DNA of 38,203 nt, taken from IMG/VR virus record IMGVR_UViG_3300023179_004386, positions 1-38,203 of that record; one strand, written 5' to 3'. The translations under genes and the position numbers were made by a program. Of the stretch, positions 16,125 through 20,345 are shown one piece after another (positions within the stretch are counted from its first letter, which is position 1; every line of letters starts with the position of its first letter). The notes beneath the pieces were generated by a model that saw only the letters and a program-made list of their open reading frames with translations, was not told the DNA's origin and searched no databases. Origin of the DNA: a virus.

Positions 16125-16198
16125 TGCTCCTTGTCGGGATCGAACCGACATTAGCCGAATTATGAGCAGGGCGCTATCAAACAGATTGCTAAACGAGC
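16125..16198 (-). pseudogene. Degenerate tRNA-Met-like gene (CAT anticodon) next to an HNH gene
   Basis: The 3' half is intact: T arm GTCGG-TTCGATC-CCGAC and acceptor AAGGAGC with discriminator A; CCA is not encoded. The loop CTCATAA would give anticodon CAT. The 5' half is poor: acceptor GCTCGTT has a G-G mismatch, the D loop lacks the GG pair, and the anticodon stem has two mismatches. A better 5' half lies on the far side of the HNH gene (16655-16680). The HNH stop codon falls inside the 5' end. Probably inactive or needing repair. Confidence 0.55.
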
Positions 16199-16608
16199 GT
16201 TTGTAGAAACTCTCCCCAACTGCCACCATAATGAAATATATTGTGGCAATTATGGCAAAGAAGGTCGCATTTATCAACTTCTTCCTTGATTGTTTCCCAT
16301 TTTCTATTAGCAAAAGATCTCCCATCAAGTTTTAATTCTTTTTGAGAAGGATCTCTGTGATGAAAGCATAGAGTTGCAGGTATATCTTCACCACATTGCT
16401 GACACTTACCACCTTTATATTGGAGAGCTTTCCATTTATTAGAATATGCTCTCTCTTTTTGTTCGGTATAAGTGTTTCTATTCATAACACAAGGATCATT
16501 TCTGTAACGCCACTTTTGACGGCAGGTTTCATTACAATAAAGTTTTGCTCTTCCACCTTTTCTTTGGTGTTGTGGAACTTCCTTATTGCACGATTTACAG
16601 TTAATCAT
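16189..16608 (-). CDS. HNH homing endonuclease 1
   Basis: 139 residues from MINCKSC (ATG 16608); an ATG at 16629 would leave almost no leader after the late promoter. N-terminal zinc site CKSCNKEVP and YCNETCRQKW; a second CQQCGE site; HNH core with CFHHRDPSQKE, then CDLLCHNCHNIFH. Such free-standing enzymes nick or cut cognate sites to spread their own gene. Its TAG stop lies in the first bases of the tRNA-like gene at 16125-16198, and a 17-nt near-repeat of the tRNA 5' end lies upstream, so it seems inserted at a tRNA gene. Confidence 0.85.
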   Translation of the reverse strand: MINCKSCNKEVPQHQRKGGRAKLYCNETCRQKWRYRNDPCVMNRNTYTEQKERAYSNKWKALQYKGGKCQQCGEDIPATLCFHHRDPSQKELKLDGRSFANRKWETIKEEVDKCDLLCHNCHNIFHYGGSWGEFLQTLV

Positions 16609-16610
16609 TT

Positions 16611-16642
16611 GTGTTATGAAGATATACATACACCTATTTATA
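16611..16642 (-). promoter_or_regulatory. Late promoter and leader hairpin of HNH gene 1
   Basis: TATAAATA at 16635-16642 (itself part of a TATTTAT/ATAAATA inverted repeat). Immediately downstream is GTGTATG (16627-16633), which can pair with CATAACAC (16611-16618, one bulge), ending 2 nt before the ATG. A late start site would fall inside the 5' arm. Confidence 0.6.
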
Positions 16643-16654
16643 AAATAAATACAT

Positions 16655-16680
16655 GCATTCGCCAGATTGCTAAAGGAGCA
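16655..16680 (-). repeat. Detached 5' fragment of the Met-type tRNA
   Basis: Minus strand begins GCTCCTTTAGCAATCTGG. It repeats the first 17 nt of the damaged tRNA (16182-16198) with one mismatch. It pairs perfectly with that tRNA's AAGGAGC acceptor strand, contains the D-loop GG, and closes a GCA/TGC D stem. The tRNA body is then lost in AT-rich sequence leading to the HNH promoter. Confidence 0.6.
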
Positions 16681-16687
16681 TTAATAA

Positions 16688-16870
16688 TCAACATGCATCG
16701 TCGTGATCTACAAAGAAACGTATATTTTCATACGCTTCTTCATAGGTGTTGTAAGGAACCATAACTGCATTGCCATACTCACTAGTAATCATAAAAGATT
16801 CTCCATTTTCAACTCTATTGATTAGGTTATCAAAGTCTTCTTGAAACTCTTGCACTGTGTAGATTTGCAT
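16688..16870 (-). CDS. Phd/YefM-type antitoxin-like protein
   Basis: 60 residues. The first 45 (TVQEFQEDFDNLINRVENGE, then SFMITSEYGNAVMVPYNTYEE) follow the Phd/YefM fold: helix, helix, and the ENGExxxIT strand that forms the DNA-binding dimer of type II antitoxins. The usual C-terminal toxin-binding tail is short and acidic (FFVDHDDAC). No toxin gene of Doc or YoeB type lies on either side. It may repress host promoters or neutralise a host toxin. An AATAAATA late-like motif (16880-16887) and a TATAAT (16885-16890) lie just upstream. Confidence 0.7.
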   Translation of the reverse strand: MQIYTVQEFQEDFDNLINRVENGESFMITSEYGNAVMVPYNTYEEAYENIRFFVDHDDAC

Positions 16871-16919
16871 AATTAGGTGTATTTATTATAAGTCCGAGAT
16901 GCAGGATTCTAACTGGTAA

Positions 16920-16995
16920 TCCGAATACTTGGATTTGAACCAAGATTATTCCTGCTCCCAAAGCAGGTGCCATGACCAAGTTAGGCGATATTCGG
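16920..16995 (-). tRNA. tRNA-Pro (TGG)
   Basis: Acceptor CCGAATA/TATTCGG, D stem GCC/GGC, anticodon stem CCTGC/GCAGG with loop TTTGGGA (anticodon TGG), T stem CTTGG/CCAAG, discriminator A, no encoded CCA. Its first 15 nt are also the last codons (PNIA) and stop of HNH gene 2. Confidence 0.92.
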
Positions 16996-17337
16996 AAGAA
17001 TTAGTTGATTATCATGAACTGCTGAATGGCAACAAGCACATAATAGCACACATCCTTTTATTTCGTCAAGAATGCGTTTGTGACTCCATCCACGAATTCC
17101 GTGAAATTTAGCATCTTTTTGAGATGGATCCAAATGATGAACCTGAAGTGCTGATGAATATTTATCGTATCCACAAGAAATACACTTACTTCCCATTTGT
17201 TCTAGAATAAAATTTCTTTTTTTCTTCCCCAACTCCAATGTATATTTGTTGTGACATGCACCACATATAGATTTTTTATGTCCATAAAATTTTGACGAAT
17301 CTATTTCACCACAATGACTACATTTATGCGTTTTCAT
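16981..17337 (-). CDS. HNH homing endonuclease 2
   Basis: 118 residues from ATG 17337; a TTG further upstream lies in the leader hairpin and is rejected. Zinc pairs CSHCGE and CGACHNKY at the N-terminus, CISCGYDK, then the HNH core VHHLDPSQKDAKF with LLCACCHSAVH. It shares the HHxDPSQK core with HNH gene 1. The reading frame ends inside tRNA-Pro. Free-standing mobile nuclease; the target is presumably near the tRNA. Confidence 0.86.
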   Translation of the reverse strand: MKTHKCSHCGEIDSSKFYGHKKSICGACHNKYTLELGKKKRNFILEQMGSKCISCGYDKYSSALQVHHLDPSQKDAKFHGIRGWSHKRILDEIKGCVLLCACCHSAVHDNQLILPNIA

Positions 17338-17338
17338 A

Positions 17339-17373
17339 TTTGGTAGAATATTCTTATCTACCAAATATTTATA
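17339..17373 (-). promoter_or_regulatory. Late promoter and leader hairpin of HNH gene 2
   Basis: TATAAATA at 17366-17373 directly abuts TTTGGTAGA (17357-17365), which pairs perfectly over 9 bp with TCTACCAAA (17339-17347). The ATG follows 1 nt after the stem. Read-through transcripts would carry the full hairpin at the start codon; a late transcript starting about 6 nt after the promoter box would lack part of the 5' arm. Confidence 0.7.
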
Positions 17374-18449: not shown

Positions 18450-18478
18450 ATTATAAGAGATAAACTCCGAATTGTCAA
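18450..18478 (-). promoter_or_regulatory. Consensus sigma70 promoter before tRNA-Gly
   Basis: -35 TTGACA (18473-18478), 17-bp spacer, -10 TATAAT (18450-18455): a perfect match. The predicted start is just upstream of the mature tRNA 5' end. Confidence 0.9.
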
Positions 18479-18561: not shown

Positions 18562-18590
18562 ATCATACCAGTTATGGATTTGATTGTCAA
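18562..18590 (-). promoter_or_regulatory. Sigma70 promoter before tRNA-Arg
   Basis: -35 TTGACA (18585-18590), 17-bp spacer, -10 TATGAT (18562-18567), directly between tRNA-Lys and tRNA-Arg. Confidence 0.85.
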
Positions 18591-18591
18591 G

Positions 18592-18666
18592 TGGGACATC
18601 TGGGATTTGAACCCAGGACTAACCGATTAAAAGTCGGATACTCTGACCAGGCTGAGTTAATGTCCC
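18592..18666 (-). tRNA. tRNA-Lys (TTT)
   Basis: Acceptor GGGACAT/ATGTCCC, anticodon stem CCGA/TCGG with loop CTTTTAA (anticodon TTT), T stem CTGGG/CCCAG, discriminator A. One T-T pair sits at the outer end of the anticodon stem. HNH gene 3 ends 1 nt upstream. Confidence 0.9.
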
Positions 18667-18667
18667 A

Positions 18668-19084
18668 TTAAATGAGTCCAAAATACTTTAACCTTTTTCT
18701 ATTACCATTTCCCTTATTGAGTGCTTTGTAATTAGAAGTTAATGAATGGCAGTTGGGGCAAAGTAATCGTAGATTTTCTTCATTATTGTTGGAGCAATCC
18801 CCATCAATATGATCTACCTCCAAAGGAGGTTTGCCAGTAGATTCATTTACTTTATTCCACCCACAAGAAGAGCACTGATGATTATATTTGTCAAAGATAT
18901 AATTTCGTATTGCCGACTTCAAGCGATAACCTGTCTTAACACCAGTAATAGAATTATTCTTCCATTCTTTAACAACTTTGTTTTTTTGGTATTCTTGCTG
19001 ACATTTGTTGGAGCAATACTTACCAGTTTGTTGAGAAGATTTATAAGAAAATTCTTCACCACAAGTTAAACAATTAGACTTCAT
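18668..19084 (-). CDS. HNH homing endonuclease 3
   Basis: 138 residues. N-terminal zinc site CLTCGEEFSYKSSQQTGKYC with CSNKC; a basic middle (GVKTGYRLKSAIRNYIFDKY); CSSCGW; then the canonical HNH core LEVDHIDGDCSNNNEENLRL followed by LCPNCHSLTSNY. More classical (DHIDG...N...CPNCH) than HNH genes 1 and 2, so of separate origin. Its stop is 1 nt from the tRNA-Lys 5' end. Confidence 0.9.
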   Translation of the reverse strand: MKSNCLTCGEEFSYKSSQQTGKYCSNKCQQEYQKNKVVKEWKNNSITGVKTGYRLKSAIRNYIFDKYNHQCSSCGWNKVNESTGKPPLEVDHIDGDCSNNNEENLRLLCPNCHSLTSNYKALNKGNGNRKRLKYFGLI

Positions 19085-19088
19085 AGTA

Positions 19089-19123
19089 GTTAGAGTAGTT
19101 GTAGTTATTTATAATACTCTAAC
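19089..19123 (-). promoter_or_regulatory. Late promoter inside the leader hairpin of HNH gene 3
   Basis: GTTAGAGTA (19115-19123) pairs perfectly over 9 bp with TACTCTAAC (19089-19097), and TATAAATA (19106-19113) lies in the loop. The ATG is 4 nt after the 3' arm. A transcript from upstream forms the hairpin against the start codon; a transcript from the embedded late promoter lacks the 5' arm and cannot. Confidence 0.8.
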
Positions 19124-19126
19124 ACT

Positions 19127-19525
19127 TCACTCCTTAGGGCAGTCGTCAACCCAAGGAGCACAAAGACGCATTTCACCACCAAGTAGTTCTTGTGCTTTGC
19201 TACCGTCTGGTGGTATCTCAACCAACTTCGGCTTCCTTATCATAGCACTCCCATCGTCGCCCGTCAAGCGTTCATACTCTGCGATTGCTCTGTCAACATC
19301 CCGATGCACTCTACGATCCAAGAGCACTGGATCATTGATAATATAATCATTCAAAGGTTTTCCAGGTATTTTTCTTTGAACTTGATCCACTATATCATAA
19401 ATCTTCTCTTCTGGAATATGAGTGCATTGAGATACTCCGGTCACCAAAGAAGTAAATATTACTCCAATGATTGCATATCTAAAAATAGTCTTTGGTTTCT
19501 TTCCAAATTGAAAATTAAATTCCAT
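19127..19525 (-). CDS. Membrane-anchored cyanophage protein of unknown function
   Basis: 132 residues from ATG 19525; an upstream ATG (19603) would overlap the preceding gene by 50 nt and a terminator, so it is rejected. FRYAIIGVIFTSLVTGVSQC (about 15-34) is a membrane segment ending in a lipobox-like Cys. A soluble part follows: EKIYDIVDQVQRK, LNDYIINDPVLLDRRVHRDV, YERLTGDDGS and a C-terminus with two Cys (RLCAPWVDDCPKE). I recall similar proteins across T4-like cyanophages without known function. An envelope role, even spanin-like, is possible. Confidence 0.7.
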   Translation of the reverse strand: MEFNFQFGKKPKTIFRYAIIGVIFTSLVTGVSQCTHIPEEKIYDIVDQVQRKIPGKPLNDYIINDPVLLDRRVHRDVDRAIAEYERLTGDDGSAMIRKPKLVEIPPDGSKAQELLGGEMRLCAPWVDDCPKE

Positions 19526-19546
19526 AAAAGGGGAGTGTATCTCCCC
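19526..19546 (-). terminator. Terminator-like hairpin
   Basis: GGGGAG/CTCCCC stem with 5-nt loop (19530-19546), followed on the minus strand by TTTT and then at once by the ATG of the next gene. It would end transcription of 19554-19748 or mask the next start. Confidence 0.55.
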
Positions 19547-19553
19547 ATATATA

Positions 19554-19748
19554 TCAACCAGCCGATGCTTCCTTGCGCGAATTCTTTTCCGCAGTAATTT
19601 CATTACGACGTTCTTTTACAAGTTTGGTAATTTCTTGAAGTGCTTTACGAGCACGAGTTCCTGCAGAATTATTTCCTGCAACAAACTTTTCATCCTCAAC
19701 TTGCCACGCTGCAACTGCATCTGTGAGTTGTTGTACTGTTTCTGACAT
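19554..19748 (-). CDS. Small basic protein resembling Hc1-type histone-like proteins
   Basis: 64 residues. FVAGNNSAGTRARKALQEIT followed by KLVKERRNEITAEKNSRK resembles the Hc1/H1-like pattern (GN.AA.TRAR.AL.E..K....R..I). The rest is a short helical N-terminus (QQLTDAVAAWQVEDE). Such proteins compact DNA; small versions are common in phages. An AAAGGA ribosome-binding site lies 6 nt before the ATG. Nucleic-acid binding is plausible but inferred. Confidence 0.65.
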   Translation of the reverse strand: MSETVQQLTDAVAAWQVEDEKFVAGNNSAGTRARKALQEITKLVKERRNEITAEKNSRKEASAG

Positions 19749-20316: not shown

Positions 20317-20345
20317 ATTATAAGTGATTATTTAGGATTTGTCAA
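20317..20345 (-). promoter_or_regulatory. Consensus sigma70 promoter for the RlpA-like gene
   Basis: -35 TTGACA (20340-20345), 17-bp spacer, -10 TATAAT (20317-20322). The leader to the RlpA ATG is about 120 nt and holds no accepted gene. Confidence 0.85.

Follow-up and report, generated by a model that had tools for sequence, protein, structure and literature searches.

Does a T4-like cyanophage time the expression of a mobile endonuclease gene with an RNA hairpin that is built around a late promoter? The question is raised by positions 19082-19123 of the window (the whole 38,203-nt stretch analysed), at the start of an HNH gene that we call HNH3. The combination of hairpin and late promoter has been described for I-TevI, I-TevII, I-TevIII, segB and Aeh1 mobE (PMC2988022), and the leaders of T4 e, soc and 49, late genes carried on early transcripts, obey the same logic (PMC3014915). 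The initial annotation of this DNA proposed that HNH3 is an independent cyanophage example of the trick used by T4 I-TevI, which it described correctly (PMC2988022). We infer, with a probability of roughly 0.8, that these positions hold a timing switch which governs a free-standing HNH homing endonuclease.

Results

A late promoter box in a start-region hairpin

The window derives from a T4-like cyanophage whose nearest annotated match is Synechococcus phage S-SRM01. The HNH3 protein matches Pfam HNH_3 (6e-6) and HNH (1e-5) as well as phrog_1271 (4e-21), and its catalytic motif, VDHIDGD...N...CPNCH, is intact. The features of the locus are as follows.

18591..18666, minus strand: tRNA-Lys(UUU), called by ARAGORN; one nt separates it from the HNH3 stop codon
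18668..19084, minus strand: HNH gene 3, a free-standing HNH endonuclease of 138 aa (Pfam, PHROG, translation)
19089..19097, minus strand: hairpin 3' arm TACTCTAAC, covering -13 to -5 of the HNH3 ATG; conserved
19106..19113, minus strand: late promoter box TATAAATA, an exact match, in the 17-nt loop of the hairpin
19115..19123, minus strand: hairpin 5' arm GTTAGAGTA (sequence, fold; conserved in four close relatives)
19127..19603, minus strand: upstream co-directional ORF, phrog_3316 (unknown function), stopping 4 nt short of the hairpin
19239..19267, minus strand: candidate early sigma70-type promoter, TTGACG-17-TATGAT (10/12), weak; it would be a source of read-through RNA

The perfect 9-bp stem claimed by the initial annotation is present on the minus strand (arms 19123-19115 and 19097-19089), its 3' end lying 4 nt from the HNH3 ATG, and the exact late box claimed for its loop is found between the arms, as TATAAATA at 19113-19106. 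Read 5' to 3', the leader runs GTTAGAGTA-TTATAAATAACTACAAC-TACTCTAAC-TACT-ATG, with TACT as the spacer between the 3' arm and the ATG (19084-19082). The cyanophage late promoter has been reported as NATAAATA (PMC2984593); TATAAATA occurs 8 times in the window compared to 4.0 expected, and all eight copies are on the minus strand. T4 spacing would place the late transcription start at ~19100, and the 5' arm is missing from the transcript predicted in this way. No Shine-Dalgarno-like sequence was found upstream of the HNH3 ATG.

The stem alone has a predicted energy of -8.9 kcal/mol (z -3.2; 2 of 200 shuffles were equally good), and three extra pairs to the spacer bring it to -10.8 kcal/mol; a wider 66-nt window is not unusual in its folding (z -0.9). 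With the DNA upstream of the box shuffled, the hairpin is by itself modestly improbable (p = 0.035), and among 47 S-SRM01 late-box leaders of genes other than nucleases, 4 have stems of similar score. It stands above chance because it is conserved in relatives. An intrinsic terminator at the stem was considered and rejected: no T-run follows the stem, and none is predicted there. Upstream of the region lies a gene for a histone H1-like Hc1 protein (19557-19748, minus strand; Pfam 5e-16), whose S-SRM01 counterpart is annotated as histone H1.

Relatives retain both arms and the core of the box

We collected sixteen loci with HNH3 relatives, one of which (L003) is essentially the genome of the window itself, and the conservation comparison rests on four distinct close relatives (L004, L007, L009 and L010; 67-78% aa identity). 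All four keep the block GTTAGAGTA..ATAAATA..T(A/G)CTCTAAC, which comprises both arms and the box core, even though third codon positions of HNH3 show only 48-57% identity and the DNA upstream of the 5' arm differs from that of the window. The sole arm change, U-A to U-G in L007, L008 and L010, retains RNA pairing and breaks the DNA palindrome. A scan for arms plus box returned the same eight contigs and no others; the leader was found only with the HNH3 gene. Distant HNH3 homologs of two isolates (42-45% aa identity) carry a different stem sequence in the same place: a 12-bp stem, ATAGTAGACCTT/AAGGTCTACTAT, that includes the ATG and holds TATAAATA inside in Synechococcus phage DSL-LC03, and a looser, interrupted stem around TATAAATA at the ATG in RN05-S.

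We computed the cost of opening positions -14 to +3 on a long RNA and on a late RNA assumed to begin 6 nt past the box. The predicted costs for the long and late RNAs are 10.5 vs 4.2 kcal/mol in the window, 12.9 vs 1.0 in L007, 9.8 vs 1.8 in L009 and 10.9 vs 0.9 in L010; L004 shows little predicted difference (5.5 vs 4.1 kcal/mol). On this model, the HNH3 start region should be hidden on the long RNA and exposed on the late RNA. In S-SRM01, SD-like 4-mers precede 28% of all genes and 11% of late-box genes, so late starts without a Shine-Dalgarno sequence are normal there.

The number of sigma70-type sites around the candidate early promoter at 19239..19267 is not above that in shuffles, and the window has no strong sigma70 promoter directly upstream of the HNH3 hairpin. 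Such promoters do occur in relatives: L007 has TTGACA-18-TATACT immediately before the hairpin, and sites matching 12/12 precede the hairpin in four relatives of a second HNH gene, HNH2 (L048, L049, L051 and L061). In the window as a whole, TTGACA-17-TANNNT occurs eight times, always on the minus strand, compared to one expected. Consensus or near-consensus sigma70 promoters on that strand (18450-18478, 18562-18590 and 20317-20345) directly precede tRNA-Gly and tRNA-Arg; the one at 20317-20345 is followed immediately by a terminator-like stem.

Two further HNH genes in the same window

HNH2 and a third gene, HNH1, are also located on the minus strand.

16189..16608, minus strand: HNH gene 1, 139 aa, phrog_2255 at 5e-25 (match of the 146-aa form that begins at an ATG further upstream, 16629)
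16635..16642, minus strand: HNH1 late box; the surrounding hairpin is weak
16919..16996, minus strand: tRNA-Pro(UGG), its 5' end overlapped by the end of the HNH2 ORF
16981..17337, minus strand: HNH gene 2, 118 aa, phrog_2255 at 3e-22
17336..17368, minus strand: perfect 12-bp HNH2 hairpin (17368-17357 / 17347-17336), from folding
17366..17373, minus strand: HNH2 late box TATAAATA, an exact match, overlapping the beginning of the hairpin 5' arm

The HNH2 hairpin has a predicted energy of -13.7 kcal/mol (z -7), and its 3' arm takes in the A and U of the AUG. The elements (C/A)TAAATA, GGTAGA and TCTACC are kept in 36/36 close HNH2 relatives. Covariation within this family is not above shuffles; as the six core pairs never vary, we do not count their conservation as covariation and base no claim on it. 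For HNH2, the test that shuffles the DNA upstream of the box says nothing, because the 5' arm of this hairpin follows the box. A distant HNH2 group (L081 and L084) has a 13-bp stem around TATAAATA that ends in the ATG.

HNH1 was rejected as a hairpin-switch case: although its box is conserved, the weak hairpin lies far from the ATG, only 5 of 28 leaders reach p < 0.05 in the shuffle test, and the difference in opening cost is small. Directly upstream of HNH1 is a Phd/YefM-like antitoxin gene (16691-16870, minus strand; Pfam 6e-7, phrog_375) that has no obvious toxin neighbour.

Late-box stems at nuclease genes of S-SRM01

Across the whole S-SRM01 genome, we took the 63 genes with NATAAATA at most 60 nt upstream and gave each the score of its best stem among those whose arms flank the box and which extend to the start region; the nuclease class was assigned by Pfam/PHROG matches or annotation. 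A stem score of at least 22.5 was reached by 7/15 nuclease genes and 0/47 others (Fisher p = 1.3e-5), in a test that covers one genome, in which several leaders are paralogous and one start was corrected (51291 to 51348, on the basis of the leader pattern of the paralogs). Gene 56059, of unknown family and with a 13-bp stem, was excluded from the nuclease test. A rank test of nuclease against other genes gave p = 0.01 (Mann-Whitney), weaker than the threshold test because about one third of the nuclease genes are without such a stem; with a stricter nuclease set it is not significant (p = 0.23), because the distribution is bimodal.

The strongest stem, a perfect 20 bp that encloses two late boxes and extends across the ATG, belongs to the endonuclease VII-like gene 126172; the endonuclease VII homolog 142306 has an 11-bp stem around its late box, 5 nt before the ATG. 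The leaders of 48536, 51291, 56059 and 62515 have a terminator-like stem and the box in common, and their outer arms differ in sequence and retain complementarity. At 48488, 51299, 56011 and 62462 we find GGTG(CTTTC or TCTTC)GGGCACCTTTT, the terminator-like stem, located after the 5' arm and ahead of the late box; in these four leaders of homing endonuclease genes (HEGs) it may additionally halt early read-through. The annotated GTG start of 51291 (L154:1291) falls within a terminator-like hairpin, and the paralogs place the start at 51348. Gene 62515-63273 (L154:12515-13273), annotated as translation initiation factor 2, has six NUMOD3 motifs and homing endonuclease matches; the label is a misannotation.

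HNH cassettes at the 5' ends of tRNA genes

The HNH3 cassette is positioned directly 5' of tRNA-Lys, a placement missing from the initial annotation. In the four close relatives, 0-1 nt separates the HNH3 stop codon from tRNA-Lys(UUU); the junction is the same although these genomes and the window have different tRNA-Lys genes. In 36/36 relatives, the HNH2 ORF runs into the 5' end of tRNA-Pro, with an overlap of 15 nt in 35/36. HNH1 overlaps tRNA-Met by 10 nt in most relatives, and in the window its 3' end is the 5' end of a degenerate tRNA-Met-like sequence. Distant HNH3 kin likewise end at tRNAs, including those of T5-like phage HdH2 and Enterococcus phage iF6, non-cyanophage relatives in which the late-box hairpin is absent even though both genes are at tRNAs.

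HNH1 is flanked by a 20-nt direct repeat (90%; 16182-16201 and 16663-16682) that resembles the 5' half of tRNA-Met. GCTCCTT of the upstream copy would pair perfectly with the downstream 3' acceptor strand AAGGAGC; the copy that overlaps HNH1 has one mismatch. Judged from sequence, a tRNA gene seems to have been invaded by the HNH1 HEG, which supplied a replacement 5' end.

Many contigs carry tRNA-Pro without HNH2, mostly with TTGACA-17-TATWAT directly upstream; these empty sites have sigma70 promoters and lack the late box. Alignment of occupied with empty sites places the insert between the sigma70 promoter and the tRNA, starting at the late box. At the tRNA-Lys site of relatives, both occupied (L020/L022) and empty (L278-L280) alleles are found. 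A search for an empty allele of the window's own tRNA-Lys found none; the only match was a near-identical contig. As read from the alignments, these alleles show that HEG cassettes inserted directly 5' of tRNAs.

Discussion

Our analysis builds on four observed features, namely the anatomy of the leader, its conservation, the empty and occupied alleles in relatives and the adjacency of tRNAs, and suggests a mechanism that presumes a late start, a translation block and homing activity of HNH3. Early transcription of the host sigma70 type, coming from upstream towards tRNA-Lys, would produce an RNA with both arms; the hairpin on this RNA would mask -13 to -5 and keep the ribosome off HNH3. Late in infection, the phage late RNA polymerase would begin at ~19100, within the loop, and the resulting RNA, without the 5' arm and with an open 15-nt leader, would allow HNH3 to be translated. 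The early RNA would thus be a pre-tRNA carrying a silenced HEG and the late RNA the mRNA of the HEG; the late box in its hairpin, together with the HNH ORF, would form a mobile cassette whose insertion site is the 5' end of a tRNA gene.

The timing control that the initial annotation proposed gains support from the conserved arms and box core, the distant kin and the opening costs; it is weakened by there being no Shine-Dalgarno sequence to hide. The layout that it put forward as a cyanophage example is real but does not stand alone, since HNH2 and many nuclease genes of S-SRM01 share it.

Three other explanations have to be weighed. The inverted repeat could be a DNA operator, bound by the endonuclease or some other protein that represses the late promoter, in the way that I-TevI represses its own promoter (PMC2988022); the arms are symmetric about the late box, and identical arms are retained in relatives. 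We consider this improbable: the best match of the HNH3 leader to its insertion site is 12/20 (p = 0.81) and that of the HNH2 leader 13/20 (p = 0.34), compared to 15/20 for I-TevI; the change in L007, L008 and L010 spoils the DNA palindrome and leaves RNA pairing intact; distant kin change the stem sequence and keep its position at the ATG; and the repeat of HNH2 and its kin includes the start codon, which an operator does not need. A chance hairpin in AT-rich DNA beside an ordinary late promoter would agree with the shuffle p of 0.035 and with the 4/47 control leaders of similar score, but both arms are kept in relatives despite diverged flanks and third positions, and hairpins of different sequence recur in kin and in further nuclease families, which makes coincidence the least credible of the three.

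It is also conceivable that the late promoter serves tRNA-Lys and the tRNAs downstream of it, the hairpin being an element of RNA processing or stability and not a block to translation. As tRNA-Lys starts 2 nt past the HNH3 stop, late RNA would read into it too. However, the empty tRNA-Pro sites have sigma70 promoters and no late box, no tRNA lies downstream of many S-SRM01 nuclease genes with the hairpin, and the position of the stem is set by the ATG and not by the tRNA. We regard this explanation as very unlikely, and retain the timing switch as the preferred reading.

The mechanism itself is known from T4 (I-TevI, segB) and Aeh1 mobE. T4 segB is likewise a free-standing HEG in a tRNA array (between tRNA-Arg and tRNA-Ile); its start region forms a hairpin and is preceded by a predicted late promoter (PMC2988022), but it encodes a GIY-YIG rather than an HNH enzyme and belongs to another host group and phage lineage; HNH3, moreover, sits at the exact 5' end of tRNA-Lys and is without a Shine-Dalgarno sequence. 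The HNH3 leader resembles that of I-TevI (PMC2988022, PMC3014915) in the placing of its late promoter: late RNA would lack the 5' arm of a hairpin that, on early RNA, would conceal the start region. I-TevI, in contrast, is an intron-encoded GIY-YIG enzyme whose consensus Shine-Dalgarno sequence is sequestered and whose operator resembles its homing site, a similarity not seen at the HNH3 leader. In mobE of Aeromonas phage Aeh1, also a free-standing HNH HEG, a hairpin covers the site where translation starts, and a late promoter is present (PMC2988022, PMC3014915); mobE, however, lies in a ribonucleotide reductase gene instead of at a tRNA, and its ribosome-binding site is sequestered. T4 e, soc and 49 differ in being phage-serving genes and not mobile endonucleases. 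Sequestration of a Shine-Dalgarno sequence is a defining feature of the T4 cases and is lacking here; therefore, we class the HNH3 leader as a variant rather than a strict member of that group.

What is new is the set of cyanophage HNH cassettes, the lack of a Shine-Dalgarno sequence, and the ORF ends that abut or overlap tRNAs. Cyanophages go unmentioned in the 2010 review of T4 mobile elements (PMC2988022), and the literature that we searched, which covered few subscription papers, yielded no report of the device in these phages. With these leaders, the range of a device known in T4-like phages that infect enterobacteria or Aeromonas grows to include cyanophages; unrelated types of nuclease (HNH, NUMOD3/GIY-like and endonuclease VII-like) use it there, and mobile cassettes carry it. 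Because empty and occupied alleles both exist, how a selfish gene inserts at a tRNA without silencing that tRNA can be tested directly.

A tentative extension, which we think rather doubtful, is that the tRNA benefits from the switch no less than the endonuclease does, early silencing letting the tRNA fold and be processed. Insertion of the HEG at the tRNA's 5' end puts the entire HEG on the early pre-tRNA; as the ORF stops at the tRNA in HNH3 and within it in HNH2 (15 nt) and HNH1 (10 nt), silencing could protect tRNA maturation. There is a parallel in I-TevI, whose silencing protects the splicing of its intron (PMC2988022). Protection of the tRNA is unlikely to be the sole role, because most hairpin-bearing nuclease genes of S-SRM01 have no tRNA following them. 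If the extension is true, the mRNA of the HEG and the pre-tRNA would be one DNA, read at two times.
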